Assembly: GCA_902787365.1 (NCBI GenBank)
Contig: CADAGC010000007.1
Coordinates: 1-51,339, forward strand
Length of the DNA stretch: 51,339 nt
Origin: an uncultured Ruminococcus sp.
GTDB lineage: Bacteria > Bacillota > Clostridia > Oscillospirales > Ruminococcaceae
Reading direction: 5' to 3'
In this document: positions 5,525 to 36,005 of the stretch, one piece after another
Position numbering within the stretch: the stretch's first letter is position 1
Layout: every line of letters begins with the position of its first letter
The notes under the pieces: model-generated
Database searches by the model: none
What the model saw: the letters and a program-made list of their open reading frames with translations, nothing else
Told to the model about the DNA's origin: nothing
Program-made: the position numbers and the translations under genes

Positions 5525-7546
5525 ATGAAAAAATGGAGCATAAAAAAGCCCGATGAAGCTAAGGCTGCCGATATTGCATCACGCTGTGATATAGATAGGC
5601 TTGCGGTCGATGTAATGGTGGCAAGGGGCTTTGATGATATGGATTCCTTTGCGGCGTTCTTTACAGGCGGCGAGCTTGAAGACCCGTTTGTGATAAAGGA
5701 TATGCAGCAGGCAGTTGATGCCATAACTGCGGCAGTTGATGAGTATGAGCTTATATGCGTCTACGGCGACTATGACTGCGACGGCGTAACAAGTACGGCT
5801 ATTCTTTATGATTATCTTCTGAGTATCGGCGCTAATGTTATCTACTATATCCCCGAGCGTGCCGACGGCTACGGCCTTAATTCGGGGGCTGTGAACTATC
5901 TGCACGACCAGGGCGTAAAGCTCATAGTCACGGTCGATAACGGCATATCGGCTATTCCCGAAGCGGAAGAGATTTATTCGCTCGGTATGAAGCTTGTAGT
6001 TACCGACCACCACCAGCCCGGCAGCTCGCTGCCCCGTGCAGAGGCGGTAGTTGACCCCCATAGAGAAGACTGTCCCTCGGCTTTCAAGCACTTGGCAGGC
6101 TGCGGCGTGGCGCTCAAACTCTGCGCTGCCCTTGACGGGGGAGATTATACCGCCGTGGCAGACCAGTATCTCGACCTGTGTGCTATAGGCACGGTGGCAG
6201 ATGTGGTGTCTCTCACGGGCGAGAACAGATATATCGTCAAGCAGGGGCTTCGCAATTTTAACACGACCGATAACTACGGTCTGCGTGCTCTCAAAAAAGC
6301 CGCAGGCTGTAAGGAAAATATGCGCTCGACCGATATAGCCTTTACCCTGGCGCCGAGAATAAACGCCGCAGGGCGCTTCGGCTCGCCGATAACGGCTGTT
6401 AAGACGCTTCTCAGCGAAGCAAATGATGCCGAGGTCTATGCAGGAATGCTCGTGAACTTGAACGACCAGCGCAAGGAAACGGAAGCAGGCATCTCAAAAG
6501 AGATATTCGGCTACATAAACGACCACCCCGAGATACTCAACGAGCGTGTGCTAATCCTTGCAGGCAAGGGCTGGGCGCACGGCGTCATAGGTATAGTTGC
6601 CGCAAGAGTAATGGATTACTACGGCAAGCCCGTGGTGCTCATCACCGAGGAAAACGGCGTGGCAAGAGGCTCGGCAAGGAGTATCAGCGGCTTTAACATA
6701 TTCAAGTGCTTTCAGGCGGCAGATGACCTGCTCGAAAAATACGGCGGCCACGAGTGCGCAGGCGGTCTGACTATCCTGCCCGAAAATATCGAAGAATTCA
6801 AAAAGCGTGTGTATGAATACGCATCATCTCTTGAGCAGATGCCTGCCATAACCATAACCGCTGACAAGCTGCTTACCCCCTCTGACCTTGATATCGAGAG
6901 GATAAGGGGTCTTTCAAAGCTTGAGCCGTTCGGCGAGGGCAATTCGCTGCCGCAGTTTGCGATAGTCGGCGCACAGGTGCGTGATATAAGGCCGCTGTCA
7001 AACGGCAAGCACTCAAAGATAGCCATAAGCTACGGCGGTGCGCAGGCAGAGCTTGTGATATTCGGCACATCGCCCTCTGCACTTACAGTAAGGGCAGGCA
7101 GCAGGGCTGATTTTATCGTGACACTTGACATAAACGAATACGGCGGGCGTGAATACCCGAGCATAAAGATAATCGACTACCGCCCCTCGGGCTTTAACCA
7201 GAACGCTTATTTCAGCGCCAAGGACTGCTACGAGCGCTACAGGCGTGGCGAGCAGTTGGAAAAAAGCTTTATCGCAAAGATGACCCCCACAAGGGAGGAG
7301 CTTATAAGCGTATACAAGACGGTGCAGGCGGCAAAGGTGATAAGTACCGACAGTCTTTACTACCGCTTTGACCCGAAAGTGATGAATCTTGCAAAGCTGC
7401 GGCTTTGCATTGACATTTTTGACGAGCTTGGGCTTGTGAGCTTCAAAGCAGGCAGCGGCACGGTAACGCTTCTGCCCGTAAGCGGCAAGGTGGAGCTTGA
7501 AAACTCGAAGATACTTGCAAAGCTCGTAGAGCTTTGCAATGCATAA
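5525..7546 (+). CDS. recJ: Single-stranded-DNA-specific exonuclease RecJ
   Basis: A 673-residue protein carrying the DHH phosphoesterase signature in order: YGDYDCDGVTS (residues 80-90), TVDNG (136-140), TDHHQPG (160-166), VVDPHR (175-180), and the DHHA1 motif GGHECAGG near residue 407, followed by an OB-like C-terminal region. RecJ degrades single-stranded DNA 5' to 3' in recombination and mismatch/base-excision repair, with Mn/Mg bound by the Asp/His clusters, all of which are present. The start is the ATG at 5525 after CGGAGACTTAA. The last codons AAT GCA TAA lie inside a left arm of repeat A, so the repeat supplies the stop codon and the final Asn-Ala. It heads the recJ–relA–hydrolase–hemZ order typical of Clostridia. 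Confidence 0.95.
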   Translation: MKKWSIKKPDEAKAADIASRCDIDRLAVDVMVARGFDDMDSFAAFFTGGELEDPFVIKDMQQAVDAITAAVDEYELICVYGDYDCDGVTSTAILYDYLLSIGANVIYYIPERADGYGLNSGAVNYLHDQGVKLIVTVDNGISAIPEAEEIYSLGMKLVVTDHHQPGSSLPRAEAVVDPHREDCPSAFKHLAGCGVALKLCAALDGGDYTAVADQYLDLCAIGTVADVVSLTGENRYIVKQGLRNFNTTDNYGLRALKKAAGCKENMRSTDIAFTLAPRINAAGRFGSPITAVKTLLSEANDAEVYAGMLVNLNDQRKETEAGISKEIFGYINDHPEILNERVLILAGKGWAHGVIGIVAARVMDYYGKPVVLITEENGVARGSARSISGFNIFKCFQAADDLLEKYGGHECAGGLTILPENIEEFKKRVYEYASSLEQMPAITITADKLLTPSDLDIERIRGLSKLEPFGEGNSLPQFAIVGAQVRDIRPLSNGKHSKIAISYGGAQAELVIFGTSPSALTVRAGSRADFIVTLDINEYGGREYPSIKIIDYRPSGFNQNAYFSAKDCYERYRRGEQLEKSFIAKMTPTREELISVYKTVQAAKVISTDSLYYRFDPKVMNLAKLRLCIDIFDELGLVSFKAGSGTVTLLPVSGKVELENSKILAKLVELCNA

Positions 7547-7649
7547 TGCATAATTAAGGTGTGCGCCTTTGGCGCACGAATTATATATGCGGCTGCGCCG
7601 AAGGGGCGGAGGGGTTTCGCCTGCAGGGCGATACATCAATTTTGCATTA
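7538..7649. repeat. Palindromic repeat element A (recJ–relA gap)
   Basis: The left arm AATGCATAATGCATAATT (7538-7555) overlaps the recJ stop codon. Inside are a perfect hairpin GTGCGCC-TTT-GGCGCAC (7561-7577), a GCGGCTGCGCCG palindrome and a weaker hairpin around GTTTCGCCTGCAGGGCGAT. A degenerate inverted arm (ATCAATTTTGCATTA, ending at 7649) closes it 20 bp before relA. The same GTGCGCCTTTGGCGCAC hairpin recurs in element B, which argues for a shared mobile origin. Confidence 0.75.
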
Positions 7650-7668
7650 GATAGAAAGGGTGAAATAT

Positions 7669-9966
7669 ATGGAAGAACAAAAGAATATTACCCCCGAAGA
7701 GGAGGAGAAGGTGCAGGCGGCTAAGAATGAAGAGATAACCGTTGCCACTTCAAGCTCGAAGTTCATTCCCGAGCCTAAGGAGTACACCATAGATGTTCTT
7801 ATACAGAAAATTCTCGACACCGACAAGCAGTATGACCTGTCAAAGATAGTTTCGGCATACGAGCTTGCTGAGAAATACCACCACGAGCAAAAGCGTGAGT
7901 CGGGCGAGCCTTACATAGTTCACCCTGTGGCGGTTGCTTACATACTCTTAGAGCTTGGTATGGACACAGACACCATTTGTGCTGCACTTCTGCACGACGT
8001 GGTGGAAGACACGCCCTGCACGCTCGAAGAGCTTCACAGGCTTTTCGGCTCGGACGTGGCGATGCTGGTTAACGGCGTTACAAAACTCGGTAAGGTGGAG
8101 ATTTTTACAAAAGAAGAGCAAAAGGCCGAGAACATAAGAAAGATACTGCTTGCAATGAGCGATGACATAAGAGTTATCATCATAAAGCTTTCAGACAGGC
8201 TTCACAATATGAGAACTTTAGGCTTCTGCTCTGAAAACAAGAGGCGCACTATCGCTCACGAGACTATGAACATCTATTCGCCGATAGCGCACAGGCTTGG
8301 TATCAGCTCGATACAAAACGAGCTTGAAGACCTTGCTTTCCGCTATCTTGACCCCTTTGCCTATGAAGAGATAGAGCGTCAGATGGCGCTCAGAAAAGAC
8401 GCAAGAGAAAACCTTGTGCGTGATCTTGTTTCTCACATAAGAGAGCGCCTTGCCAAGGACTTTGACCCCGTGCCCTGCGTTGAGGGGCGTGTCAAGAGCA
8501 ACTACGGAATTTACAAAAAGGTCTACCGTGACGGCAAGGAGATAGACCAGATATATGACCGCTATGCGGTAAGAGTAATTGTCAACACCGTGACGGAATG
8601 CTACAGCGTGCTTGGTATCATACATGATATGTACAGACCCATTCCTGCGAGGTTTAAAGACTACATCTCGACACCGAAGCCTAATATGTACCAGTCACTC
8701 CACACGACCGTTATAGGCAGGCAGGCGATACCCTTTGAGGTGCAGATAAGAACATGGGAAATGCACCAGATGGCTGAATATGGTATCGCATCTCACTGGA
8801 AATACAAAGAGGGCATAAAGACCAGCGAAAAAGACGACAAGCGATTAGCGTGGATAAGGCGCATTATCGAGAGCCAGCAGGAATCAAACGACGTCGAGGA
8901 GATAGTAAGGGCGATAAAGAACGACCTTGCACCCGAGGACGTATTTGCATTCACGCCGAAGGGCGACATGATATCGCTGCCTGTGGGGTCTACGGTCATT
9001 GACTTTGCGTATGCTATACACACAGAAGTCGGCCACAAGATGTGCGGCGCCAAGGTTGACAAGAAAATGGTCAGCTACGACTATGAGATAAAGACGGGCG
9101 AGATAATAGAAATACTCACATCGAATGTTGAGGGGCACGGGCCGTCAAGGTCGTGGCTTAACATCTGCAAGACGAATGAAGCCAAGTCAAAGATACGCTC
9201 GTGGTTCAAGAAAGAGAGACGAGAAGAGAACATCTTCGAGGGCAGAATGGCGCTTGAGAGAGAATTCAGGCGCAACATGATACACGTTCCCGAGGAGGAC
9301 TTGGAGGAGTTCTTATCGCTTGACATGAAGCGCCACAACTGCGACACGGTTGAGGATTTCTTTGCGGCGATAGGTTACGGCGGCGTTCAGCTCTCAAAGG
9401 TGATACAGCGCCTAAAGAACGAATACAACAAGCGCTACGCCGAGAAGATAAAGGACGACAACGAGGAGATAATCACAAAGCCCAAGCGCTCATCGAGCAA
9501 TTCGGGCGTTATCGTTGACGGCGTTGAGGACTGCTCGGTGAAATTCGCACGCTGCTGCAACCCGATACCGGGCGACGAGATAGTGGGCTTCATAACCCGT
9601 GGGCACGGCATAAGCATACACAAGAAAGACTGCCAGAATTACCTCACCCAGCGCAACTCAGAATCCGCCAAGGACAGGTGGATAAAGGCTTCGTGGGAGT
9701 CGAGCGACCAGAACAAGCAGTCGTCATACTTCAAGGTGACGCTTGACATCATAGCCGTTGACAGAATAGGTCTGCTCGCTGATGTATCGACCGCACTTGC
9801 GATGATAAACGTATACATCTACGAATCGACATCGAGAGAGCTTAAAAACGGCAACGCCATTCTCTCGGTTACTATGTCGATAGCGGGCATGGATATGCTA
9901 AACACCATTATTGCGAAGCTTAAGAAGATAAGGAATGTTATTTCTGTCGAGCGTAGTGGTAAGTGA
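7669..9966 (+). CDS. relA: Bifunctional (p)ppGpp synthetase/hydrolase RelA/SpoT
   Basis: A 765-residue long RSH enzyme. It has an HD hydrolase domain (HPVAVAYILLELG, then LLHDVVEDT near residues 108-115, so the hydrolase appears active), and a synthetase domain with RFKDYISTPKPNMYQSLHTT near residues 329-348. These are followed by a TGS domain (AFTPKGDMISLPVGSTV, from about 427), a Cys/His zinc-finger-like region (FARCCNPIPGDEIVGF) and a C-terminal ACT domain (about 687-765). It makes and degrades the stringent-response alarmone in response to amino acid starvation on the ribosome. The start is the ATG at 7669 after GAAAGGG; a GTG three codons earlier is less likely. Its neighbours recJ and a metallo-hydrolase are those usual for Clostridia. 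Confidence 0.96.
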   Translation: MEEQKNITPEEEEKVQAAKNEEITVATSSSKFIPEPKEYTIDVLIQKILDTDKQYDLSKIVSAYELAEKYHHEQKRESGEPYIVHPVAVAYILLELGMDTDTICAALLHDVVEDTPCTLEELHRLFGSDVAMLVNGVTKLGKVEIFTKEEQKAENIRKILLAMSDDIRVIIIKLSDRLHNMRTLGFCSENKRRTIAHETMNIYSPIAHRLGISSIQNELEDLAFRYLDPFAYEEIERQMALRKDARENLVRDLVSHIRERLAKDFDPVPCVEGRVKSNYGIYKKVYRDGKEIDQIYDRYAVRVIVNTVTECYSVLGIIHDMYRPIPARFKDYISTPKPNMYQSLHTTVIGRQAIPFEVQIRTWEMHQMAEYGIASHWKYKEGIKTSEKDDKRLAWIRRIIESQQESNDVEEIVRAIKNDLAPEDVFAFTPKGDMISLPVGSTVIDFAYAIHTEVGHKMCGAKVDKKMVSYDYEIKTGEIIEILTSNVEGHGPSRSWLNICKTNEAKSKIRSWFKKERREENIFEGRMALEREFRRNMIHVPEEDLEEFLSLDMKRHNCDTVEDFFAAIGYGGVQLSKVIQRLKNEYNKRYAEKIKDDNEEIITKPKRSSSNSGVIVDGVEDCSVKFARCCNPIPGDEIVGFITRGHGISIHKKDCQNYLTQRNSESAKDRWIKASWESSDQNKQSSYFKVTLDIIAVDRIGLLADVSTALAMINVYIYESTSRELKNGNAILSVTMSIAGMDMLNTIIAKLKKIRNVISVERSGK

Positions 9967-9968
9967 TC

Positions 9969-10193
9969 AATGCACAATGCACAATTGAGGTGTGCGCCTT
10001 TGGCGCACGGATTTGAAAAGCGGCTGCGCCGCAAATTTGCAATTGTGGGTTGTGATATAGTGCATTTGAACTGTGAATTGATAATTAGCCGCCGTAGGCG
10101 GCTGCCCGATACGGGTTGATTCAACAGAGTTGAATCCTATTGCGGCGAAGCCGCAAACCATAATTATGCATTATGAATTATGCATTATGCATT
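9969..10193. repeat. Palindromic repeat element B (relA–hydrolase gap)
   Basis: A 225-bp element with a left arm AATGCACAATGCACAATT (9969-9986) and a right arm at 10162-10193, built from TTATGCATT/TATGAATT units in inverted orientation. Between them is a chain of hairpins: GTGCGCC-TTT-GGCGCAC (9992-10008, identical to element A), GCGGC-TGC-GCCGC, GCCGCC-GTA-GGCGGC, GATTCAAC-AGA-GTTGAATC and TTGCGGC-GAA-GCCGCAA. It fills the whole gap up to the ribosome site of the next gene. No coding potential was seen. Confidence 0.8.
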
Positions 10194-10214
10194 TAAAAAA
10201 CGGAGGTTTTTACT

Positions 10215-14599: not shown

Positions 14600-14670
14600 G
14601 CGGTGGGGGCAGGCGTGCTGTAAAGAATAGTGATTAAACGAGGTGCCCTTGCGGGAGGGAGAATACAGCT

Positions 14671-15339: not shown

Positions 15340-15342
15340 CAA

Positions 15343-16933: not shown

Positions 16934-18340
16934 ATGGGTGAAGAAAAGACCACCAAACGAAATTCATTTTCAAGCTCGATAGGCTTTGTGCTTGCGGCGG
17001 CAGGCTCGGCGGTCGGGCTTGGCAACATCTGGCGCTTCCCTTATCTTGCGGCTAAGGACGGCGGCGGTGTATTCCTTGTGACATACATAGTACTTGCTAT
17101 AACCTTTGGCTTTACGCTGATAGTATCGGAAGTTGCGATAGGGCGCAAGACCAAGCAGGGCTGTCTGACGGCTTACGGCAAGCTTCACAAAAGCTGGGGC
17201 TGGGTAGGCGTATTCTCATCGCTTGTGCCTTTTCTGATACTGCCTTATTACAGCATAATAGGCGGCTGGGTGTTAAAATACATGACCGTTTACTGCACGG
17301 GCAAGGGCAGCGACGCTGCGAATGACGAATTCTTCGGCGGATTTATCACAAGCTACGCACAGCCTTTGATCTTCAACGCCATATTCTTATTAGCAACGGC
17401 TTTTGTAATCTACAAGGGCGTAAACGGCGGCATTGAGAAGCTTTCAAAGGTGCTTATGCCGATACTTTTAGTAGTTGTTATAGGCATTGCGATATTCTCG
17501 CTGACAATAAAGGGCGAGGACGGCAGAACGGGTCTTGACGGGCTTAAGGTTTTCATAGTTCCTGATTTTTCGGGCATGGGGCTTAAGGATTACTTCATAG
17601 TTCTGCTTGATGCCATGGGTCAGCTATTCTACAGCATAAGTGTTGCTATGGGTATCATGGTAACATACGGCTCATACTTCAAGGACGACTCAAACCTCTT
17701 AAAGAGCGTAAACCGCATAGAAGTATTCGACACTTTGGTAGCATTCCTTGCGGGCGTTATGATAATACCGCCTGTAGTGGCTTTCATGGGCACACAGTCG
17801 ATGAAAGAAACAGCAGGCCCCTCGCTTATGTTCGTAGCGCTGCCGAAAGTTTTCGAGCAGATGGGAACAGTCGGCTCTATAGTAGGTGCGGTATTCTTTG
17901 TAATGGTACTTTTTGCAGCGCTCACAAGCTGCATATCAATACTTGAAGCGGTAGTTTCGGGGCTTATGGACAAGTTCGGCTGGTCGAGAAAGAAAGCCGT
18001 TATCATTGAAACGTCTGTAGCCTTTGCGATAAGCGTTATCATCTGCCTTGGCTACAACGCATTCTTCTTCAAGGCAAAGCTGCCCAACACAGCACCCGGC
18101 AGCTCAGCGCAGTTACTTGACATATTCGACTACTTATCAAACAACATCTTCATGCCGATAGTTGCTATAAGCACCTGCATACTCATAGGCTGGGTAGTAA
18201 AGCCCAAGACTGTGATTGATGAGGCCACAAAGAATGGCGAGAAGTTCTACAGAAAGCCCATGTATATCGTGATGATAAAGTTCATAACACCTGTACTGCT
18301 TGCGATACTGCTGTTAGGGTCGTTTGGAATTTTCTCTTAA
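16934..18340 (+). CDS. Neurotransmitter:sodium symporter family transporter
   Basis: A 468-residue membrane protein with the NSS (LeuT-fold) N-terminal signature: GFVLAAAGSAVGLGNIWRFP at about residues 17-36, which lines the Na+ and substrate sites, and about 11-12 helices overall. Bacterial NSS members import amino acids such as tryptophan, leucine or alanine with Na+; the substrate here is unknown. It is a single gene with its own promoter (16868) and terminator (18427). Its TAA stop lies in TTAATGCAAAATGC, the first unit of the left arm of repeat C. Confidence 0.92.
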   Translation: MGEEKTTKRNSFSSSIGFVLAAAGSAVGLGNIWRFPYLAAKDGGGVFLVTYIVLAITFGFTLIVSEVAIGRKTKQGCLTAYGKLHKSWGWVGVFSSLVPFLILPYYSIIGGWVLKYMTVYCTGKGSDAANDEFFGGFITSYAQPLIFNAIFLLATAFVIYKGVNGGIEKLSKVLMPILLVVVIGIAIFSLTIKGEDGRTGLDGLKVFIVPDFSGMGLKDYFIVLLDAMGQLFYSISVAMGIMVTYGSYFKDDSNLLKSVNRIEVFDTLVAFLAGVMIIPPVVAFMGTQSMKETAGPSLMFVALPKVFEQMGTVGSIVGAVFFVMVLFAALTSCISILEAVVSGLMDKFGWSRKKAVIIETSVAFAISVIICLGYNAFFFKAKLPNTAPGSSAQLLDIFDYLSNNIFMPIVAISTCILIGWVVKPKTVIDEATKNGEKFYRKPMYIVMIKFITPVLLAILLLGSFGIFS

Positions 18341-18530
18341 TGCAAAATGCAAAATTCATAATGCATAATTGTGGAGTCCTGCTGCGCAGGACGTATCATA
18401 AAACGGCTTCGCCGTAACGATAATAAGCCCCCGAGGACTTTTCAAAATCCTCGGGGGCTGCTTTTTTTAATATCATCGCACCGCAGGTGCGATACCTTAA
18501 TTATGCATTATGCATTATGAATTATGCATT
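18339..18530. repeat. Palindromic repeat element C with embedded terminator
   Basis: A 192-bp element between two convergent genes. The left arm (18339-18370) and right arm (18499-18530) are inverted copies sharing AATTCATAATGCATAATT. Inside are hairpins GTCCTGC-TG-GCAGGAC, ACGG-CTTCG-CCGT, a 12-bp terminator stem (18427-18460) and CGCACC-GCA-GGTGCG. The left arm overlaps the stop codon of the NSS gene and the right arm contains the last two codons and stop codon of metH, so the element ends are fused to both reading frames. Confidence 0.85.
18427..18469 (+). terminator. Rho-independent terminator inside repeat C
   Basis: AGCCCCCGAGGA (18427-18438) and TCCTCGGGGGCT (18449-18460) form a perfect 12-bp stem followed by GCTTTTTTT. 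It ends the NSS transcript and may also act on metH from the other side. Confidence 0.85.
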
Positions 18531-20972
18531 GATTAAAGAATCCACCAGTCTTACGCAGTCGGCGGCGTCGGTGGAGTAGCCGTCGGCTTCAATTTCTTTG
18601 GCAAAGCCCTCGGTGACGGCGGCACCGCCTACTATTATCTTAGAGGTACAGCCCTTATTACGGGCTATCTCAATGACAGTCTTCATATTCATCATAGTCG
18701 TTGTCATAAGCGCCGAAAGGGCTATGACGGCGGCGTTTTCTTTCATGGCGGTATCGACTATCAGCTCGCTATCGACGTTCTTACCGAGGTCGATGACCTT
18801 ATAGCCGTAGTTTTTGAGCATGAGGGCAACGAGGTTTTTGCCGATATCGTGAACGTCGCCCTCGACTGTGGCTATGACTATGACGGGGGCGTTATCGTCC
18901 TGACCCTCGCTGACAAGCATAGGCTCTAAGTATGCGATAGACTGCTCCATAGCGTTAGCTGAGGCTATAAGCTGGGGCAGGAAGTAGCGCTTTTGCTCGA
19001 AGAGCTTACCCACCTTATTGATAGCAGGGATAAGCAGGGTATTTATTATCTCGGAGGGGGAAGTTCCGCCCTCGACACGCTCTTTGGTAAGGGGGACGAT
19101 GCTGTCCTTTTCGCCGTTCATTACGGCTGTGAAAATGGGGTCGCTTTCGTTTTTATCCTTAGGCTCGGAAGCTGCGGGGGCGGGAGTGCCTGCGGCAGTC
19201 TTGGGGGCGGCTGCGGGCTGGGTGGCCATTTTCTCGGTATAGTAGTTTATACGCTCGATATAGCGCATATCGCTGCCCTCACGGTTTAAGAGCATATCGG
19301 CGGCAGCGGCGGTGTTCATAAGAAGATCCTGCGAGGGGTTAGCGATAGCCATAGTAAGGCCTGCGGCAATACTCATAGCGAGGAATGCGGTATTGACAAA
19401 GCCCCTCTCGGGCAGGCCGAATGAGATATTTGAAAGGCCGCATACCGTAGCAAGGCCACGCTGCTTACAATGCTCAAAGGTGGCAAAGCAGTTAAGGGCT
19501 GATGCTTTATCAGCGCCGACTGTTCCCACAAGAGCATCTACCACGATATCGGTCTCCTTAAAGCCGACAGCGAGGGCACGGTCGATAGCGGTATCGACTA
19601 TGCGGTGTTTTTCTTCTATTGTTTTTGGTATGCCCACATCATCAATAGGCAGGAAGATGAACATAGCGCCGTATTTTTTAGCCATTTGAAGCATAGGCTC
19701 AAACTTTGCGGCCTCGTAGTTTATGGAGTTGATAAGCGCACGGCCGGGGTATATACGAAGTGCTGCCTCGATGACCTCGGGATAGCTTGAATCTATACAC
19801 AGCGGCAGGTCGCTTATCTGGGAAAGCTCGTTTATGACGTTTATCATAGTCTGCTTCTCGTCGATATTGCCCATACCGCAGTTTACATCGAGGATAGATG
19901 CGCCTGCTGCTGCCTGCTCACGGGCAAACTTACGCACGATATCGAGCTTACCGTCGATAAGCTCGGCCTGCAGGGCCTTTTTGCCTGTAGGGTTTATACG
20001 CTCGCCGATAACGAGAAAGCGCTCGCCGGGCATTATCTTTACAGCCTTACGCTCGGAGCAGATAACACGCTGACCGACTTTTCTGACAGTTTTACGCTCG
20101 GTCTTATCGAGGGCTGTTTTGAGAGCTTTGATATGCTCGGGCGTTGTGCCGCAGCAGCCGCCCATTATACTTGCGCCCATAGCTGCAAGAGATGCGGAAT
20201 ACTGCGCAAATTCCTCGGGGGACATCTTATAGACCGTCTGCCCGTTTTCAAGCTCGGGCAGGCCTGCGTTTGCCTTGACTATAACGGGAATATCGGAATA
20301 CTCGATAAGCGTCTGGACTATATCAGACATTTTATCGGGGCCTGCGCCGCAGTTGATACCCACAGCGTCAACGCCCAGGCCCTGCAATACTGTAGGCACG
20401 CACTCGGGCGGCGTGCCGAAGAGGGTACGGCCGTCTGTCTCGAAAGTAAGGGTCGCCATAATAGGCAGGTCGGTCACCTCACGGACAGCAAGCACGGCGG
20501 CACGGGTCTCTTGCAGGCTCATCATAGTTTCAATAACGAACAGGTCGGCGCCTGCGTCAGCGATAGCCTTTGCCTGCTCACGGTAGACGTCAACAAGCTC
20601 TTCAAACTGCAAGTCACCGAGGGGGAAGAGCTGTTTACCCGTCATAGTGATATCGCCTGCGACATAGGCCTTATCGCCCACGGCTTCTTTTGAGAGCTTA
20701 ACGAGGGCTGTGTTCATCTCGACAAGCTTATCCTGCAGATCATACTCGGCAAGCTTTATTCGGTTAGCGGTAAAGGTTGAGGCATAGACTATATCTGTGC
20801 CTGCGTCAACGAAAGCCCTTTGAAGCTGTATCAGGGCATCGGGGTGGTCGAGCACCCATTGTTCGGGGCAGACGCCCACGGGCATACCCGCCTTTTGAAG
20901 ATTAGAGCCTGTAGCCCCGTCAAGTATCACAAAGCGCTCGTTACACAGAGCACGGAATTCTTCTCTGGTCAT
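18522..20972 (-). CDS. metH: Cobalamin-dependent methionine synthase (short form)
   Basis: An 816-residue enzyme with three modules. The homocysteine S-methyltransferase barrel (about 1-290) has zinc-binding cysteines in INCGAG (Cys208) and GGCCGTT (Cys273, Cys274). The pterin/methyltetrahydrofolate barrel spans about 317-560 (FLVIGERINPTGKKALQ). After an Ala/Pro-rich linker (about 585-605) comes the B12 helical cap and Rossmann domain with the cobalt-ligand motif DVHDIGKN near residue 703. The AdoMet reactivation domain of the E. coli enzyme is absent, as in Thermotoga-like forms, so reactivation would need a separate protein. GGAGGAATGACC precedes the ATG. The C-terminus Asn-Ala-stop is encoded by repeat C. 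No B12 or SAM riboswitch fits the short leader. Confidence 0.93.
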   Translation of the reverse strand: MTREEFRALCNERFVILDGATGSNLQKAGMPVGVCPEQWVLDHPDALIQLQRAFVDAGTDIVYASTFTANRIKLAEYDLQDKLVEMNTALVKLSKEAVGDKAYVAGDITMTGKQLFPLGDLQFEELVDVYREQAKAIADAGADLFVIETMMSLQETRAAVLAVREVTDLPIMATLTFETDGRTLFGTPPECVPTVLQGLGVDAVGINCGAGPDKMSDIVQTLIEYSDIPVIVKANAGLPELENGQTVYKMSPEEFAQYSASLAAMGASIMGGCCGTTPEHIKALKTALDKTERKTVRKVGQRVICSERKAVKIMPGERFLVIGERINPTGKKALQAELIDGKLDIVRKFAREQAAAGASILDVNCGMGNIDEKQTMINVINELSQISDLPLCIDSSYPEVIEAALRIYPGRALINSINYEAAKFEPMLQMAKKYGAMFIFLPIDDVGIPKTIEEKHRIVDTAIDRALAVGFKETDIVVDALVGTVGADKASALNCFATFEHCKQRGLATVCGLSNISFGLPERGFVNTAFLAMSIAAGLTMAIANPSQDLLMNTAAAADMLLNREGSDMRYIERINYYTEKMATQPAAAPKTAAGTPAPAASEPKDKNESDPIFTAVMNGEKDSIVPLTKERVEGGTSPSEIINTLLIPAINKVGKLFEQKRYFLPQLIASANAMEQSIAYLEPMLVSEGQDDNAPVIVIATVEGDVHDIGKNLVALMLKNYGYKVIDLGKNVDSELIVDTAMKENAAVIALSALMTTTMMNMKTVIEIARNKGCTSKIIVGGAAVTEGFAKEIEADGYSTDAADCVRLVDSLINA

Positions 20973-22130: not shown

Positions 22131-24464
22131 GTGAAATCTATACGTTCTAAAATTCTTGTAACTATGCTGGGCGTAACAATAATTACCAGCTTTATTATAA
22201 TACTGATATTTATGCTTTATGTACGTGCTTCGGGTAAGAACGCTGTTGAGAGCTTTGTGCCTGCGGTGTCGTTTGACGTATCAAGAAGTATCGACAAGTC
22301 GGTAGACAGCTACGGGCTTGCGGTATCAAAGGTGGCGGCAAGGATATCAGAGAAGACCTCACCCGCAGAGATAAAGCCGATGTTTGACAAAGAGACATTT
22401 GTCGGCGTGGGCGTTTACAGTTCGGCGGGCACATTAGATCCGAACTCAGAGGCGATAATAAGCAAGGTCATTGACGAGCAGACGCTGAGAAAGGCGCTGA
22501 GCGTTGCCTGCTACTGCTGCAACACGGATCTTGTGGAGGTTGACGGCAAGTACTACATAGGCTATGTATGCGGCGTCGGCAAAATGGACACGGCGTCAAG
22601 CGACAGAATAGCTGTTGTTGCCTGTCTTGATGACATACTTAAAGACATGAACGAAGTTTCCGACAAGTCGAAAACGAATATCGTGGTTATAGACGCTGAC
22701 AGCAACAAGGTAATGCTGGCGTCTGACAATTCTGCTTTCGGTGCGGGAACAGACATAAGCGAGGGCGATTACAGCGAACTCAATGACGCATACTCGGCGT
22801 CACTCGAATCAGATGTGGCAGAGAGCTGCAAGCTTGACGGCAAGCAGAGGATAATCGCTGCAAGCAAGCTCAAAAACATTGACGCAAACGTTCTTTGCTA
22901 CACCACAACGGACGTTTTCATGGGCATTGAGACATCTACCTACATAATAATAGTTGTAACGGCGGTAGTGCTGATAGCGGGAACGCTCATCGTGGCGATG
23001 TTCTTCTCAAGAAACATATCAAAGCCTATCGTTTCCACCACAGACAGAATCAGAAAGCTTGCACAGGGCAACCTGACTGAGCCTGTTGCGGTATGGGATT
23101 CAAAGGACGAGCTGGGAATACTCACAAACTCGCTCGAAGAAACGATAATGTCTTTAAGGCAATACATATCCCTTATCAATGCGGGGCTGACACAGATATC
23201 CGAGGGCAACCTCTCACACCGCATGGAGGGCAACTTCAAGGGCGACTTTGTAAAGATAAAGGACACATTCAATTACATCTTGGAGGCGCTTTCCGAGACA
23301 TTCGTATCAATAAACACTGCGGCTGAGCAGGTGAACACGGGTGCTTCTTCCGTTTCGGATTCGGCACAGGTGCTCTCACAGGGCTCGACAAGGCAGGCAA
23401 GCTCGGTAGAAGAGCTTTCGGCAACGCTTACGGGCGTATCCAAGCAGATAAGGCAGAACTCTGACGACGCTAAGAACGCTTACAACATAGTATCTGAAAA
23501 CACGGCGGCTATCAACAACTGCAACGACGACATGGGCAATATGCTCTCGGCTATGGAGCAGATAACAGAGGCCACCGACGAGATCTCAAAGATCATCAAG
23601 GTCATCGACGAGATATCTTTCCAGACGAACATACTCGCACTCAATGCGGCTGTTGAGGCGGCAAGAGAGGGCTCGAAGGGCTTCGGCGTTGTTGCTGACG
23701 AAGTAAGGCGGCTTGCTTCACGTTCGGCAGAGGCGGCAAAGCAGACCTCACAGCTTATTGAAAACTCGACAAATGCCGTTGAGCGTGGCTCGGACATAGC
23801 AAAGGAAACGGCGAAGTCGCTTGAGGAGATAGTTGTAGGCTCTGACAACATCAAGGGTCTTGTCAAGAACATCACAGACGCTTCAGAAGCACAGGCTGAG
23901 GCGATAGTTCAGATAAACACGGGCGTTGACCAGATAAGTGCCGTTGTTGCGAACAACACGGCGGCGGCTGTCGGCATAGCTTCGGCTTCTGAGGAGCTTT
24001 CGGGTCAGTCGCTTGTTCTCAAGAACATGATAGCGAGATTCAAGCTCACAGAGGGTGCTGGCGGCGGTGGCAGCGTTACCCCTGCGGCAAGCGCAAGGAG
24101 CAAGTTCGATTACGATGATGACGACATGGAGGCACCTGTTCACGCATCGACGATATCGAAATTCGCATACCCCGATGATGACGATGATGACGAGCCTGCG
24201 GCACCTGCATCGAAGTTTGATTACCCCGACGATGACGACGATGAGCCTGCGGCTTCACCGGTATCGAAGTTTGATTATCCCGACGACGATGACGAGCCTG
24301 CACCTGCAAAGCCCGCATCGAAGTTCGATTATCCCGATGATGACGACGAGCCTGCCCCGGTATCGACTCCCGGCACAAGCTTTGTTTATCCCGATGATGA
24401 GGACTTCGGCTCGGACGATGAGGACATAACTATCGACTTGGATGATGAGGACGATAAATACTAA
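22131..24464 (+). CDS. Methyl-accepting chemotaxis protein with acidic repeat tail
   Basis: A 777-residue receptor. It has an N-terminal TM helix (about 10-30), an extracytoplasmic sensor of about 235 residues, TM2 (about 265-287), a HAMP domain (RNISKPIVSTTDRIRKLAQG), a second HAMP-like segment (INAGLTQISEGNLSHRM near 350) and the signalling coiled coil. The hairpin tip is intact (ISFQTNILALNAAVEAAREG near residues 493-512). Instead of a CheR-binding pentapeptide, the C-terminus (about 648-777) is a very acidic tail with tandem SKFDYPDDDDEPA-type units. Start is GTG after GGAGGT. No che or flagellar genes are in the window, so the receptor may serve an alternative output. Role of the tail is unknown. 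Confidence 0.9.
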   Translation: MKSIRSKILVTMLGVTIITSFIIILIFMLYVRASGKNAVESFVPAVSFDVSRSIDKSVDSYGLAVSKVAARISEKTSPAEIKPMFDKETFVGVGVYSSAGTLDPNSEAIISKVIDEQTLRKALSVACYCCNTDLVEVDGKYYIGYVCGVGKMDTASSDRIAVVACLDDILKDMNEVSDKSKTNIVVIDADSNKVMLASDNSAFGAGTDISEGDYSELNDAYSASLESDVAESCKLDGKQRIIAASKLKNIDANVLCYTTTDVFMGIETSTYIIIVVTAVVLIAGTLIVAMFFSRNISKPIVSTTDRIRKLAQGNLTEPVAVWDSKDELGILTNSLEETIMSLRQYISLINAGLTQISEGNLSHRMEGNFKGDFVKIKDTFNYILEALSETFVSINTAAEQVNTGASSVSDSAQVLSQGSTRQASSVEELSATLTGVSKQIRQNSDDAKNAYNIVSENTAAINNCNDDMGNMLSAMEQITEATDEISKIIKVIDEISFQTNILALNAAVEAAREGSKGFGVVADEVRRLASRSAEAAKQTSQLIENSTNAVERGSDIAKETAKSLEEIVVGSDNIKGLVKNITDASEAQAEAIVQINTGVDQISAVVANNTAAAVGIASASEELSGQSLVLKNMIARFKLTEGAGGGGSVTPAASARSKFDYDDDDMEAPVHASTISKFAYPDDDDDDEPAAPASKFDYPDDDDDEPAASPVSKFDYPDDDDEPAPAKPASKFDYPDDDDEPAPVSTPGTSFVYPDDEDFGSDDEDITIDLDDEDDKY
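24090..24400 (+). repeat. In-frame tandem repeats in the chemoreceptor tail
   Basis: Units of about 45-54 bp each encode S-K-F-[DA]-Y-P followed by four to six Asp and E-P-A; the core words ATCGAAGTTYGATTAYCCCGA recur near 24,208, 24,260 and 24,316, with diverged copies on both sides. The near-identical DNA suggests recent unit gain or loss by slippage. Confidence 0.85.
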
Positions 24465-24475
24465 GCAGATGTAAG

Positions 24476-24541
24476 AAATCAGAGGTAAGAGGTGAGACGG
24501 AAATAGAGTTTCCTGATTCTTGCTTCTTGCCTCTTTGATTT
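24476..24541. repeat. Nested inverted repeat after the chemoreceptor gene
   Basis: AAATCAGAGGTAAGA (24476-24490) pairs imperfectly with TCTTGCCTCTTTGATTT (24525-24541), with an inner GGAAA-TAGAG-TTTCC hairpin (24499-24513). The AGGTAAGAGGT arm resembles the TTACCTCTTAC segment near 11,020. It may act as a transcript end or be another small dispersed repeat. Confidence 0.5.
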
Positions 24542-24562
24542 GACAGAGGGTGAGGGTGTATT

Positions 24563-25357: not shown

Positions 25358-25372
25358 AAGGACTTGATAAAA

Positions 25373-26452: not shown

Positions 26453-26469
26453 GGCATTATAATAGTTCA

Positions 26470-26496
26470 AGCCCCCGAGATCATTTCCCGGGGGCT
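26470..26496. terminator. Terminator-like hairpin between convergent genes
   Basis: AGCCCCCG (26470-26477) and CGGGGGCT (26489-26496) form a perfect 8-bp stem. The T tract is short on both strands, so efficiency is uncertain. The stem resembles the terminator in repeat C. Confidence 0.6.
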
Positions 26497-26509
26497 TTGC
26501 CATATCTGT

Positions 26510-27568: not shown

Positions 27569-28095
27569 TATTCTCCCTCCTTTAGTATTTCCCGAAGCTT
27601 ATCTATACCACGGGATATTCGTTTATTGACTGTGTTCGGTTTCATAGAAAGAGCCTGCCCGATCTCCTTTGAGCCTTGCCCAAGATAATAGCGGCGGATA
27701 AATATCTCGCTGTCGGGAGCGCCGAGGCGTCTGATAGCTTCAAGCAGCTCGCTCGGCTCGGCGTAGATATCCTCACAGGGGATATCGTTTGCATAGTCGA
27801 GGGGGAGAGTTTCCTCCCTCTTACAGCGTGAGCGGAAAATATCGGTACAATGGCGTTTAGCGATGACCGAAAGCGGCGCTATCACCGAGCGCAGCGCCTT
27901 ACCCTCCTTAAGAGCATAGGCATAAAGCTGCATAAAAACATCGCTGACGGCTTCTTCGATATCCTCGCTCGTGCAGACGTCACTCAGCTTACTGCGGGCT
28001 ATCTTATACACATAGGCCGAGTAAAGCCCGACCGCCTGCCTAAGCCCCTCCTGCGGGTCATCGTAAAACAGCAGGGCAAGCTCTTTATCATTCAT
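27568..28095 (-). CDS. ECF-type RNA polymerase sigma factor
   Basis: A 175-residue sigma-70 family protein with region 2 at about residues 20-90 (YVYKIARSKLSDVCTSEDIE, then AVSDVFMQLYAYA and RHCTDIFRSRCKREE) and region 4 at about 110-170 (DSEIFIRRYYLGQGSKEIGQ then ALSMKPNTVNKRISRGIDKL). ECF factors respond to envelope or extracellular cues. It overlaps the start of the DUF4179 gene, supporting a sigma/anti-sigma pair. The upstream leader contains a perfect 12-bp palindrome. The ribosome site is GTGAGGTATCCATAG before the ATG. Confidence 0.85.
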   Translation of the reverse strand: MNDKELALLFYDDPQEGLRQAVGLYSAYVYKIARSKLSDVCTSEDIEEAVSDVFMQLYAYALKEGKALRSVIAPLSVIAKRHCTDIFRSRCKREETLPLDYANDIPCEDIYAEPSELLEAIRRLGAPDSEIFIRRYYLGQGSKEIGQALSMKPNTVNKRISRGIDKLREILKEGE

Positions 28096-28112
28096 CTATG
28101 GATACCTCACTT

Positions 28113-28124
28113 TGAAACGTTTCA
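28113..28124. promoter_or_regulatory. Palindrome upstream of the ECF sigma gene
   Basis: TGAAACGTTTCA is a perfect 12-bp palindrome 18 bp upstream of the ATG. It resembles LacI/CcpA-like half-site geometry but lacks two central bases of a typical cre site. Possible operator; a -10-like TATATTAT lies just upstream on the minus strand. Confidence 0.45.
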
Positions 28125-28173
28125 TAATATACAGTCGATAAGAAGAACAGAATAGTGACAAGGCTGTGGAAAA

Positions 28174-28346
28174 AATGCATAATTCATAATGCATAATTGA
28201 TGTATCGCCTGCGGCAATGGATTTTAATACGGCTTCGCCGTAACGAAAGAATAACCCCGAGGGATTTTGGTTTCCCTCGGGGTATTGTTTTGTCAGTTGA
28301 TAATCATCGGCGCAAGCCGCCTGGCGCACCATAATTATGCATTATT
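28174..28346. repeat. Palindromic repeat element D
   Basis: The left arm (28174-28198) contains AATTCATAATGCATAATT, identical to repeat C; the right arm is AATTATGCATTATT (28333-28346). Inside are TATCGCC-TGC-GGCAA, ACGG-CTTCG-CCGT (shared with element C), a 10-bp terminator-like stem (28254-28283) and an imperfect hairpin around GGCGCAAGCCGCC. The right arm overlaps the stop codon of the cohesin-domain gene. Confidence 0.8.
28254..28283. terminator. Terminator hairpin inside repeat D
   Basis: ACCCCGAGGG (28254-28263) pairs perfectly with CCCTCGGGGT (28274-28283). On the minus strand it is followed by TATTCTTTC, so it probably ends the cohesin-domain gene transcript. Confidence 0.65.
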
Positions 28347-29439
28347 TTTTCGTGTGCTTTATCCTCTTACGCTTATTGCGGGAGCTTTTTTTGGAGACAA
28401 GGGCAACTATCACCACAAGGATAATTATAAGCACGATGCCGACTGCGGCTATGAGCTTTTTGATATCGCCCGAGCTCTTTTCGAGGGAAAGCTTGCGGGT
28501 GGTGGTGACGGTGCTTTCGGGGGTGCTCTCGGGGGCAGAGGTAGTGGTGACGTCCTGAATGAAACTCTGCTCCTCCTCCTCGGTCATACGGGAGATATGG
28601 AAGGTATAGACAGTCTCATTATCCGCATAGTCACGCACGGCGATAGTACGGGTGATAATGCCGTCATAGACGTTCTCATCGCCTGTATACCATATATAGC
28701 CGTTTTCAATTGACGGCACACCCTCTAAATCGAGCCATGTGCAGTCGTGGGGCACTTTGATATCATACTCCAGCACATCATATGAGAATGCGGGGGAGAT
28801 ATAGCCTGTTGATATCTTAACGGCGCTGAGCTTGCCCTCGGGCACGGAGCCGTCGGCGGGCTTTGCGGTTTCGGTGGTGGTTGTGGTAGTCTGCTCGGTA
28901 TCAGTCTCGCTCTGCGAGGTTGTCTGCTCGGTGAAAGTCGTGGTGCTCTCGTCGGGTTTTTCGGCGGCGGTGGTAGTGGTGGCAGGCTTGGTGGTAGTCT
29001 CGGCGCTGCCCTGCACCTCAATGCTTGCCTCAGCCGAGGGGCTTCTTATACCGTTCTGGCCGCTGTCGGTTATCTGGCAGTTAACGAGCCTAATAAAGCC
29101 GTCACCCTCGCCGATAGTCTTGAAAACTATATTCATAGAATAGACGCCCTCGGCGCCCGTATCGGTGAACGCCCTTACCGTGAGCGTGCCACGGCCTGCG
29201 AAGCTTACATCATCGCAGCTGACGTATTCGAGGACTTTATCGTTATAGCTGATGCTGCCCTGAATATCGGCGATATCGTTCTTATCGCTGCGGAAGGTCA
29301 CGGTGGCCATTACCTCATCGCCCAGGAAGGTATGGGGCTTTGAGAGATATATCTGCACCGTATCTTCGGCAAGCGCCGCAGGGGCGATTATCATGAGCAA
29401 AGCCGCAGTCAGCAGCAGGGTAACTATGCGCTTTATCAC
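28342..29439 (-). CDS. Surface-anchored cohesin-like domain protein
   Basis: A 365-residue type I membrane protein. It has a signal peptide (about 1-24, cleavage after ALA), a cohesin-like beta-sandwich (about 26-143: TFLGDEVMATVTFRSDKND, QGSISYNDKVLEYVSCDD), a Thr/Ser/Glu-rich linker (about 145-200) and a cadherin-like beta-sandwich (about 207-290: FSYDVLEYDIKVPHD). A second Thr-rich stretch, a TM helix (about 329-349) and a strongly basic cytosolic tail (KKSSRNKRKRIKHTKK) follow. Cohesin domains bind dockerins in cellulosomes, but related folds in single-domain proteins can bind sugars or other proteins. Start is a GTG after AAGGAG. The stop codon lies in an arm of repeat D. Confidence 0.8.
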   Translation of the reverse strand: MIKRIVTLLLTAALLMIIAPAALAEDTVQIYLSKPHTFLGDEVMATVTFRSDKNDIADIQGSISYNDKVLEYVSCDDVSFAGRGTLTVRAFTDTGAEGVYSMNIVFKTIGEGDGFIRLVNCQITDSGQNGIRSPSAEASIEVQGSAETTTKPATTTTAAEKPDESTTTFTEQTTSQSETDTEQTTTTTTETAKPADGSVPEGKLSAVKISTGYISPAFSYDVLEYDIKVPHDCTWLDLEGVPSIENGYIWYTGDENVYDGIITRTIAVRDYADNETVYTFHISRMTEEEEQSFIQDVTTTSAPESTPESTVTTTRKLSLEKSSGDIKKLIAAVGIVLIIILVVIVALVSKKSSRNKRKRIKHTKK

Positions 29440-29474
29440 AGGGGCATCTCCTTTCTTTTATCACGTACTCTATT

Positions 29475-29503
29475 ATTATATATCAATTATGTTTTTTAGT
29501 CAA
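29475..29503 (-). promoter_or_regulatory. Sigma-A promoter of the cohesin-domain gene
   Basis: On the minus strand TTGACT (complement of 29498-29503), 17-bp spacer, TATAAT (complement of 29475-29480), about 36 bp before the GTG at 29439. Confidence 0.8.
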
Positions 29504-29540
29504 GTATATAAATCTAAGGATTTTATGTAATAGTGAAGCG

Positions 29541-29574
29541 GCAAAAACAAACACCCCGAACAGCTTTCGGGGTG
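29541..29574 (-). terminator. Terminator of the HD-GYP gene
   Basis: On the minus strand CACCCCGAA and TTCGGGGTG (29552-29560 and 29566-29574 in plus coordinates) form a perfect 9-bp stem followed by TTTGTTTTTGC, 5 bp after the HD-GYP stop codon. Confidence 0.85.
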
Positions 29575-29579
29575 CGTTT

Positions 29580-31292
29580 TCAGCAATCAATTGATGAGTA
29601 GTATTCTTCAAGTCTCGGCCTTGCCTTGATATAGTATGGTTCAAGGCGCTTATCGAAGTGCTTGCCCATACCCTCGGTGATGATATTATTTGCCTGCTCA
29701 AAGCTCATCTTTTCTTTATAGACACGCTTGCTCACAAGGGCGTCGTAGACGTCGGCAATTGCCATTATCCTCGCTTCGAGGGGGATATTCTCGCCTTTCA
29801 AGCCCTCGGGGTAGCCCGAGCCGTCCCACCTTTCGTGGTGGTAGTGGGCAACATTTTCGGCTATGATATGGAACCTCACATCATCTGTAGACTTAAGAAT
29901 CTCGTGGACTATACGTGCGCCCTCTGCGGCGTGGGTCTTCATTATGGCGTATTCCTCGTCGGTGAATCTGCCCTCTTTACAGAGAATCTCGTCCTTGACG
30001 GCTATCTTGCCGAGGTCGTGCATAGGTGCGGCCTTGATAAGGTCTTTACAGAACTCATCATCAAGCTCGAAGTCGCTGCCCTTTCTTATCTCGTCGATAA
30101 GTATACGCACGCCCTCACTCGTTCTTCTGATATGGCCGCCCGTGGAGTTATCACGGCTTTCAACCATAGTCGCCATACTGAGGATAAGGTTATCGTGCAT
30201 CTCAACGATATGGCGGGTCTTTTCGGCGACCTCCTGCTTAAGCTCGGTATTGAAGCTGTCAAGCAGGGTGATATACTGCTGATTCTGGGTATCGTCGGTG
30301 ATTATCAGCTGGTAGCCCCTTTTCCGCCTGCCGTCGGAGAGGTAGTTGACATCTATGAGGTAGGTCTTATCGTCCTTTTGGTAGTAGAACTTATCGTTGC
30401 GGTTGTTTTCCTTAAAGCTTTCAAGCCACACAAGGGCTGTCTTTTTCATAAAGTCGTTTCTGCTTATGGGCTTATCGACGGTTATATTCAAAAGCTCGGG
30501 GAAGATAGTTTTTGCAGTTTCATTCGAGCCGAGGTATTTAAGCCCGAAGTCAAAGGAAACAAAGCCTGTATCTCCCTTCTGAACGAGGGAGTCGATTACC
30601 GTATCGGAAATATCATAGAGCACCAGCCTATGGACGATTATGAGGTAGACCACAAGTGCCACGTCATAGGCGAAGGGGATAAGCTCAACATCGGGGAAGA
30701 AGTCAAAGGTCTTGGAAAGCTTTCTGCCCACAAAGAAGCTGAACACCGACAAGGCCTCGGGGAGAGCCAGCAGGTAGATGAACTTTCTTGAAACCTGATT
30801 ATTCTTGAAATAGCTATAGGCTATAGCGGCTATGCCCATAAGGAAATAGATTATGACCATAGCGTAGAAGAACTTATGCAGAGGGCCGTATTCCTTTACG
30901 AGAACCGCAGAGCCGTTTTCGACCTTATATTCAACGCTTTTATAGTATAGTTCATTCTCGCCTATTTGCAGGGTGAATGAGAACACCACGGTGCAGACAA
31001 GGTACATTATGAGCCGCACATAGCGGTTAAGCTTGATATCACACAGGCTGAAAACTATCAACGTCAGCAAAAGTATAAGATAGCAGGAGCCTATATATAT
31101 TATCTTGTTTGCGATCATAGCCGTTTCGGGAGTATCGGCACGGCCGAGGAAAACGTACCCGAGGTTGCTAAGCGGCACAAGTATGAACACCAGCGATATA
31201 TGCACATCAAAGTGCCTGTGGTATATAAAGCTGTAAATAAGCATCAGCACCACCGAGACGGCGAATGCCGAGATATAGTAAATATCCGCCAA
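29580..31292 (-). CDS. Membrane HD-GYP domain protein (putative c-di-GMP phosphodiesterase)
   Basis: A 570-residue protein. The N-terminal part has about seven hydrophobic helices (residues 5-230), like the 7TM sensor modules of histidine kinases. A PAS-like region follows (about 235-350: DTGFVSFDFGLKYLGSNETA), then a short coiled coil and the HD-GYP domain. Motifs are complete: APMHDLGKIAV (HD, near 421), MKTHAAEGARIV, HHERWDGSGYPEGLKG (near 482) and ARIMAIADVYDAL. HD-GYP enzymes hydrolyse cyclic di-GMP or related dinucleotides. The start is inferred as TTG at 31292 after GGAAGGTGGT; no in-frame ATG with a ribosome site is nearby. Own promoter and terminator make it monocistronic. Confidence 0.88.
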   Translation of the reverse strand: MADIYYISAFAVSVVLMLIYSFIYHRHFDVHISLVFILVPLSNLGYVFLGRADTPETAMIANKIIYIGSCYLILLLTLIVFSLCDIKLNRYVRLIMYLVCTVVFSFTLQIGENELYYKSVEYKVENGSAVLVKEYGPLHKFFYAMVIIYFLMGIAAIAYSYFKNNQVSRKFIYLLALPEALSVFSFFVGRKLSKTFDFFPDVELIPFAYDVALVVYLIIVHRLVLYDISDTVIDSLVQKGDTGFVSFDFGLKYLGSNETAKTIFPELLNITVDKPISRNDFMKKTALVWLESFKENNRNDKFYYQKDDKTYLIDVNYLSDGRRKRGYQLIITDDTQNQQYITLLDSFNTELKQEVAEKTRHIVEMHDNLILSMATMVESRDNSTGGHIRRTSEGVRILIDEIRKGSDFELDDEFCKDLIKAAPMHDLGKIAVKDEILCKEGRFTDEEYAIMKTHAAEGARIVHEILKSTDDVRFHIIAENVAHYHHERWDGSGYPEGLKGENIPLEARIMAIADVYDALVSKRVYKEKMSFEQANNIITEGMGKHFDKRLEPYYIKARPRLEEYYSSIDC

Positions 31293-31312
31293 ACAGCGGC
31301 ACCACCTTCCTC

Positions 31313-31465
31313 AATGCACAATGCAACAATGCACAATGCACAATTACGTAGTATATCAACTTATATTATACAATAAAACAGGTCAAAAGTCAATCAAACA
31401 GTTATTAATTCCTGCAGCGAAGCCGCACACCTTGATTATGCATTATGAATTATGCATTATGCATT
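31313..31465. repeat. Repeat element E carrying the HD-GYP promoter
   Basis: The left arm (31313-31345) is made of AATGCACAAT-type units ending AATGCACAATT, as in element B. The right arm (31435-31465) is the inverted TTATGCATTATGAATT type. Unlike A-D, the interior is AT-rich and holds a sigma-A promoter, plus one short hairpin GCAGC-GAA-GCCGC near 31414. Confidence 0.75.
31365..31393 (-). promoter_or_regulatory. Sigma-A promoter of the HD-GYP gene
   Basis: On the minus strand TTGACT (complement of 31388-31393), 17-bp spacer, TATAAT (complement of 31365-31370). It lies between the two arms of repeat E, so the transcript leader starts with the left arm. Confidence 0.8.
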
Positions 31466-36004: not shown

Positions 36005-36005
36005 C

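Follow-up and report, generated by a model that had tools for sequence, protein, structure and literature searches.

Short intergenic palindromes with inverted heptamer arms in a Ruminococcus genome and their association with S23 genes

Introduction

What are the short palindromic elements that lie between the protein genes of an uncultured Ruminococcus sp., and by what means could they have reached their sites? The question is raised by a stretch of 51,339 nucleotides (GenBank assembly GCA_902787365.1, contig CADAGC010000007.1; hereafter the window), for which an initial annotation described a MITE- or REPIN-like family with inverted arms. The arms are built of tandem heptamers. Cyanobacterial STRRs are heptamer repeats, and heptamers are known from Bacteroidetes too. 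The protein S23, which enters the analysis below, is best known from inserts in ribosomal RNA genes, and we know of no settled function for it. Further heptamer families are described in the relevant passages of three papers. For the TAACTGA heptamers of Beggiatoaceae it is stated that 'no mechanism is evident' for their spread (PMC4679880); Xanthomonas GGGAATC forms 186 and 183 arrays, mostly of four units, with 70 and 75 convergent pairs (PMC4692102); and Geobacter GGGACCG occurs as four units in 49 copies (PMC2700814).

Results

Five elements with inverted arms, none of them assigned a strand, were confirmed in the window where the initial annotation had placed them. The arms are inverted tandem 7-mers AATGCAT/AATTCAT with the variants AATGCAC and AATGCAA, and the 10-mer AATGCATAAT, allowing at most one mismatch, was found 42 times against 5.6 expected; none of 100 shuffles reached 42, the maximum being 13. 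Element A (7538..7649) starts with a left arm of two units plus AAT (7538-7554), followed by the hairpin GTGCGCCTTTGGCGCAC and a reduced right end to 7649. Element B (9969..10193) carries a left arm of AATGCAC type (9969-9985), a hairpin chain and a right arm of 31 nt (10163-10193). Element C (18339..18530) has two arms of 31 nt each (18339-18369, 18500-18530), with hairpins and a terminator module inside. Element D (28174..28346) consists of a left arm (28174-28197), the terminator module and a right arm cut down to one unit (28334-28343), so that the right arms of both A and D have shrunk to about one unit. Element E (31313..31465) has left arm units of AATGCAC type (31313-31344) and a right hairpin plus arm (31435-31465). 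Two solitary arms of two units each were also upheld, at 36006..36022 (+) and 50024..50038 (+), while the third one proposed, at 3498, proved to be a single unit (3499..3508, -) that alone is near chance level. Three probable remnants had escaped the initial annotation: a right end at 201..232 (no strand) with the hairpin GCCCGAATGGGC, ACACCTTC and one arm unit, a left end at 34300..34329 (+) with AATGCACAATTG and then the GCCCATACGGGT hairpin, and a right end at 47551..47565 (-) with CCTTAATTGTGCATT.

The interiors of the elements are strings of short GC hairpins, and in most copies the ends next to the arms are alike: the left one reads AATT-NNGGT-hairpin, the right one hairpin-ACCNN-AATT. 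Sharing of interior modules, as claimed earlier, was borne out: A and B have a common left end of 64 nt at 88% identity, and C and D a common stretch of 67 nt, including ACGGCTTCGCCGT and the terminator, at 72% identity. The window copies are located between protein genes and none holds an S23 gene. The family as a whole is mostly intergenic, and some arms reach into genes and form stop codons there. The stop codons of the open reading frames 5507-7546 (+) and 18522-20972 (-) are supplied by an arm (AAT GCA TAA), and the stop codon of 16934-18340 (+) lies across the start of an arm. The promoter ascribed to one copy, E, could not be established. The interior of E corresponds to a collinear, weakly similar stretch in relatives without arms (local scores of 39 and 38, the shuffles reaching at most 39 and 43), and this 'promoter cargo' may be host sequence. 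An Rfam scan of the window gave no family at its cut-off. The neighbouring genes look ordinary, encoding RecJ-like, RelA/SpoT, metallo-beta-lactamase fold, SNF symporter, methionine-synthase-like, sigma-70 region 4, HD-domain and flavodoxin proteins; among nine window proteins searched against Pfam, one (28342-29439) was without a match.

The arm family was then followed across the genome to which the window belongs (2.9 Mb in 137 contigs; G000). The 18-mer AATKCATAATKCATAATT has 117 exact matches there and its reversed control has none, in agreement with a dispersed, modular, MITE-like family of many copies. Arms were measured in the window together with 20 stretches of the same genome picked for holding arms (423,542 bp). 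Among the 83 arms sampled, for which just two units were required, the commonest length was 31 nt, that is, four heptamers plus AAT (54 arms), followed by 17 nt (16), 24 nt (8), 38 nt (4) and 66 nt (1). Only five of the 83 arm midpoints fall inside trimmed coding sequence, though coding covers 77%. Inverted pairs within 500 bp numbered 24 in these stretches and 7 in 20 stretches of a second genome, G006, likewise picked because of arm matches. All 31 pairs were predicted to fold as RNA with arm-arm pairing, the first 40 nt forming 11-35 pairs with the last 40, at energy z-scores of -3.4 to -14.9 against mononucleotide shuffles. The terminator module CCCCGAGG...CCTCGGGG, or a near variant, is present in six of the 24 pairs, including window C, and also in window D, which substantiates the claim that some copies carry a terminator.

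The arms are not unique to the window. The exact 18-mer was detected in 4 of 61 genomes, namely G000 (117), G001 (132), G006 (64) and G045 (1), and a 17-mer in 14 of 394 genomes of the order, including G347 (327), G313 (49), G262 (41) and G245 (20). At least 120 stretches of viral contigs hold arm matches. Comparison with relatives, of which the three nearest named are Ruminococcus MAGs with 91-95% RelA identity, yielded the sites without arms that the initial annotation had suggested looking for. The element at site A is absent in L031 and L032, and site B is empty in L032 and L033. The arms are missing at site C in G004, and at site E in G002 and G004; around D, synteny with the relatives is lacking. 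Since L031 and contig C40 of G004 probably represent one genome, these are not independent comparisons. In L031, site B holds a remnant with a different heptamer (TGAATAA) and the same AAAGGTGCGCC hairpin start; an AAGGT-hairpin start is kept with a different heptamer in L031, L249 and L255.

A matching-end transposase had been proposed as a further check. None was found in the 24 pairs of the own genome, nor arm arrays at four Y1 loci, Y1 being the transposase family scanned for, and the sole gene lying between matching arms in these pairs codes for an S23/IVP protein. The other 23 pairs are without S23, in line with the description of the copies as short, non-coding and inverted-ended. The exceptional copy is 506 bp long (L222, 12458-12963) and has one open reading frame, matching the profiles PF05635 ('23S rRNA-intervening sequence protein') and TIGR02436 ('four helix bundle protein'). 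Its order is heptamer arm, GGT, hairpin, S23/IVP gene, hairpin, ACC and inverted heptamer arm. A solved relative of this protein, 2rld, is one entry with five chains of one sequence.

S23 genes with arms were also observed in other genomes. Within the genus, PF05635 gave 11 matches in six of seven genomes, several flanked by other tandem heptamers (AACAGTT, (T/A)ACAGGT, GTGAATA). Arms of the AATKCA[T/C] type occur at S23 genes of G003, G045, G077, G188 and G302, and G347 has one on the upstream side of one of its seven S23 genes. The whole genome of G045 has just two 17-mer matches, and these flank S23. A different element of G347, 890 bp long, holds an HTH gene in place of S23, indicating that the interior is exchangeable. 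S23 genes were present in 94 of 197 order genomes sampled, and in four of the nine arm-bearing order genomes tested. The search detected no S23 in G245 (99% complete, 20 arm matches) or in G262 (68% complete, 41 arm matches), and in G006 and G001, with 64 and 132 arm matches, the S23 genes found (four and one) carry different heptamers.

The association was measured on 158 S23 loci, 156 of which had both flanks long enough. The set was composed of 40 loci from the 11 genus matches and the 29 best-scoring order matches, 60 hand-picked order loci (about the next 40 by E-value, then 20 with skips), 29 from a phylum search, 17 from 31 plasmid records and all 12 viral loci; duplicates are included in the counts (L448 repeats L406, and L329/L330 and L351/L352 are near-copies). 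The criterion for an array was at least 17 identities in 21 positions at lag 7, no farther than 350 nt from the gene. By this measure a period-7 array stands in one flank or both at 70 of the 156 loci; both flanks have one at 40, and in 36 of these the two arrays are the same heptamer in inverted orientation. The fraction was 24/39 for genus and best order matches, 13/59 for further order matches, 14/29 for the phylum, 10/17 for plasmids and 9/12 for viral loci. In the far flanks of the same loci an array was found in 3 of 147 on each side, and in RelA flanks in 0/30 and 1/30. At other lags from 5 to 10 the share was 0-3%; plasmids stood out at lag 8 with 6% and 12%. Lag 14, being twice 7, was likewise raised at S23 flanks. 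No period-7 array was detected at this threshold in 86 of the 156 loci, including 46 of 59 in the second order sample. The layout of S23 with inverted heptamers recurs in further Bacillota as well as in plasmids of cyanobacteria and in viral contigs. Passing plasmid loci came from Calothrix, Nostoc, Anabaena, Pseudanabaena, Geminocystis, Aulosira and Trichormus, with direct instead of inverted arrays in Pseudanabaena L333. The single Riemerella plasmid locus scored 16/21 on both sides, and the single Gemmatirosa locus fails the array score. S23 is co-directional with both neighbours in 13 of the 15 plasmid loci having both annotated.

The heptamer itself drifts from locus to locus, and period, unit number and strand polarity are steadier. 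In 37 matching-arm loci, counted without the flank-length rule, the median number of units per arm is 4.6 and 4.7 (interquartile ranges 4.3-5.3 and 4.1-5.0; outliers 16 and 37), with a floor near four because an array had to pass a 28-nt window to be counted; the 31-nt mode of the G000 arms is free of this floor. Of 30 distinct heptamers, all read inward, 20 are richer in G than in C, 3 are richer in C and 7 have equal numbers (p = 0.0005, with relatedness left out of account); 26 of the 30 contain at least four purines. Mean heptamer distance was 3.55 for pairs below 30% protein identity, 2.03 at 70-80%, 2.36 at 80-90% and 1.00 above 90% (73 rows, two entered by hand). A strict assignment of one heptamer to each S23 lineage was rejected, the heptamer following protein identity loosely. 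Three-frame stop codons as the cause of period 7 were also rejected, for an inward stop occurs in 34 of 59 heptamers (0.58) against a shuffled mean of 0.61.

Filled and empty sites could be compared directly in cyanobacterial plasmids. Plasmids of Trichormus and Scytonema carry, between two genes of a conjugation operon, an S23 element whose heptamers are of GTCAG type; the plasmids of Aulosira and Nostoc carneum, 97% identical there, lack it. Comparison of the filled junctions, AAAAAGTAAT-element-GTAATTAAC, with the empty sequence AAAAAGTAATTAAC indicates a clean insertion in which GTAAT (5 nt) is repeated. Between the two filled copies the left arm varies by two heptamers; in Nostoc C052 the same site is occupied by a shorter derivative with no S23 gene annotated. 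In a second pair of 93% identity (L337/L460), ATG (3 nt) is repeated, overlapping stop and start codons constraining those bases. L331/L361 and L329/L363 are also filled/empty pairs, with messier junctions.

Discussion

From these sequence comparisons we consider it probable that the window elements are ORF-less, MITE-like, non-autonomous members of a class of S23-type mobile palindromes akin to rRNA intervening sequences, and that S23 aids their copying into new sites. We count in favour of this reading the own-genome copy with S23 between matching arms, the S23 genes with AATKCA[T/C] arms in other genomes, the excess of arrays at S23 flanks over far flanks, other lags and RelA flanks, the filled and empty plasmid site with its two-heptamer difference, the armless sites of the window, the arm pairing predicted in all 31 folds, the AAGGT-hairpin start kept beside a different heptamer, and the Coxiella parallel described below. 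Counted against it are the 86 array-less S23 loci, the arm-rich G245 and G262 without S23, the S23 genes of G006 and G001 with other heptamers, and the unequal duplications of 5 nt and 3 nt at two cyanobacterial sites. We know of no catalytic function of S23, which is also counted against it. The genomes rich in arms and either without S23 or with an S23 of other heptamers imply that gene-less copies outlive their S23, use another one, or need none.

The closest parallel is the intervening sequence of Coxiella 23S rRNA. The parts of PMC4990558 that deal with it describe an S23 ORF preceded by tandem GACAGAT heptamers, whose number varies from strain to strain, and a terminal stem of 28 bp. RNase III is reported there to cut at the first repeat, and an older proposal is cited that the ORF serves mobility. 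According to the same parts, the mobility of rRNA intervening sequences is suspected rather than shown, and Coxiella S23 is probably not produced in vivo, which we also count against our reading. With this sequence the present elements share tandem heptamers, inverted ends predicted to form a stem and, in one pair of the own genome, an S23 ORF. Unlike that fixed rRNA insert, they lie between protein genes in many copies, are mostly without S23, and contain hairpin and terminator modules. It is this layout, matching the Coxiella sequence but placed outside rRNA, that leads us to read the window copies as non-autonomous S23-type elements.

By this mechanism the two arms would pair, either as single-stranded DNA or, by analogy, as RNA. 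S23, a four-helix bundle and probably a ring, may bind the arms and aid copying into new intergenic sites, as its association with them suggests, and ORF-less copies would use S23 in trans. A host enzyme would perhaps make the DNA joint. In a transcript, by analogy, the arm stem could be a site for RNase III, and copies bearing a terminator would be expected to end transcription.

Four other explanations were weighed. Ordinary MITEs of a DNA transposon, with the heptamer arrays as transposase-binding sites and S23 as a passenger or accessory gene, would account for inverted ends, many gene-less copies and the short duplication at one site, and the element with an HTH gene agrees with a replaceable S23; against this, S23 recurs between such arms in unrelated hosts, and 30 different heptamers would require equally many binding specificities, so we regard this explanation as rather unlikely. 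In a retro-element reading, S23, which is distantly related to the retroelement protein Avd, would act with a reverse transcriptase in trans. The S23 of L260 scores 43.7 bits against bAvd and 40.7 bits against DivGenRetAVD, whose cut-off is 80. However, RVT_1 was present in 26 of 94 S23 genomes and in 31 of 103 without S23 (Fisher p = 0.75), leaving 68 S23 genomes, some of them incomplete, that show no RVT_1. This reading appears very improbable, and a diversity-generating retroelement is likewise not supported by the test of RVT_1 association.

Still less weight is given to non-mobile regulatory or terminator repeats arising in place and selected at gene ends. The elements do lie at gene ends, some with terminators, and a role in translation is proposed for the TAACTGA heptamers in the relevant part of PMC4679880; yet whole units are present or absent with flanks intact, and the stop-codon role failed. 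The least probable explanation is a REPIN/IS200-type element moved by a Y1 (HUH) transposase, the REPIN-like nature suggested by the initial annotation. The present elements are palindromic, intergenic and mosaic like REPINs and BIMEs with RAYT, a subject of PMC3116915, and Y1 transposase occurs in four of seven genus genomes, including G000, G001 and G006. The fourth, G005, has Y1 yet no exact 18-mer arm match. The ends here are heptamer arrays, different from single REP hairpins, and no Y1/RAYT gene linked to arms was found: four Y1 loci fetched from four genomes have no arm array, two of these loci having a lone 10-mer each.

With the heptamer families of Beggiatoaceae, Xanthomonas and Geobacter the elements share tandem 7-mers in mostly intergenic positions and, with the last two, the usual number of four units; the relevant passages of those papers name no mobilising partner (PMC4679880, PMC4692102, PMC2700814). 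They resemble the type II MITEs of Anabaena 90, as described in part of PMC3542288, in being short, inverted-ended, intergenic and without a matching transposase, and differ in having heptamer arrays as ends and an S23-bearing form. The words 'four helix' and 'S23' are absent from the main text of these four papers. Among the papers listed by our searches of the open-access literature, we found none tying S23 to dispersed inverted heptamers, the nearest precedent being the heptamers before S23 in one rRNA intervening sequence, as given in part of PMC4990558. The link between S23 and heptamers joins heptamer families, the common S23 genes and rRNA intervening sequences into one testable question, and may help explain the puzzling heptamer repeats of many bacteria.

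A bolder idea, which we think doubtful, is that a hitherto unrecognised class of mobile elements was founded on S23 and has ends recognised by geometry rather than by sequence, a five-fold ring gripping about five boxes spaced 7 nt on one purine-rich strand. The five-fold ring is suggested by the five chains of 2rld and by work on Avd; the TRAP ring is known to read spaced triplets. If true, this model would explain the steady period of 7, the unit number and the polarity despite heptamer drift, and would bring together in one system the intervening sequences of rRNA, the heptamer repeats of cyanobacteria, TAACTGA, GGGAATC and some transposase-less MITEs. Some of the S23 loci without arrays are chains of hairpins linked by short repeats and situated after tRNA genes, and these perhaps form a second subclass.

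Genomic settings of S23 genes

The S23 genes (PF05635, "23S rRNA IVP") are often located between inverted tandem heptamer arms. At seven loci (L252-L254 and L256-L259), the S23 gene closely follows tRNA genes, the arms are GTGAATA- or AATAATG-like, and these arms are in turn enclosed by a longer repeat pair, either AGAAACGCCC / GGGCGTTTCT or AACAGCGCCC / GGGCGCTGTT. At nine other loci (L274, L275, L279, L280, L284, L285 and L467-L469), chains of short hairpins were observed 5' of the S23 genes, joined by linkers of short repeats such as GTGAAGT, GTGAAAT and ATGATGT. A tRNA gene lies directly before several members of this group, which perhaps represents a second subclass. In the group of L332, L333, L344 and L316-L318, S23 elements were also found within CRISPR-Cas operons (cas6/cas4; Cas10/Cmr3) and next to genes that, as judged from the DNA sequence, are putative restriction-modification components.

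Other cargo and repeats

In genome G347, AATGCAT arms enclose an 890-bp stretch (L323 3269-4159, contig C4) carrying an HTH_3 and zinc-ribbon gene in place of S23. Two elements of the relative G006 (L231 18787-19163 and L244 1802-2072) have a GC-rich extra module in common, to which the armless module at the C site of genome G004 (the site of window element C, 18339..18530) is loosely similar.

Within the window, the adjacent ORFs of 481 and 458 aa at 34559-37427 are tandem duplicates, with blocks about 1.4 kb apart and 74-81% identical, and are separated by the solitary two-unit arm (36006..36022, + strand). ORF 22131-24464 includes an acidic repeat region at 24100-24410, where a unit of about 54 bp with abundant GATGATGACGAC recurs in frame.
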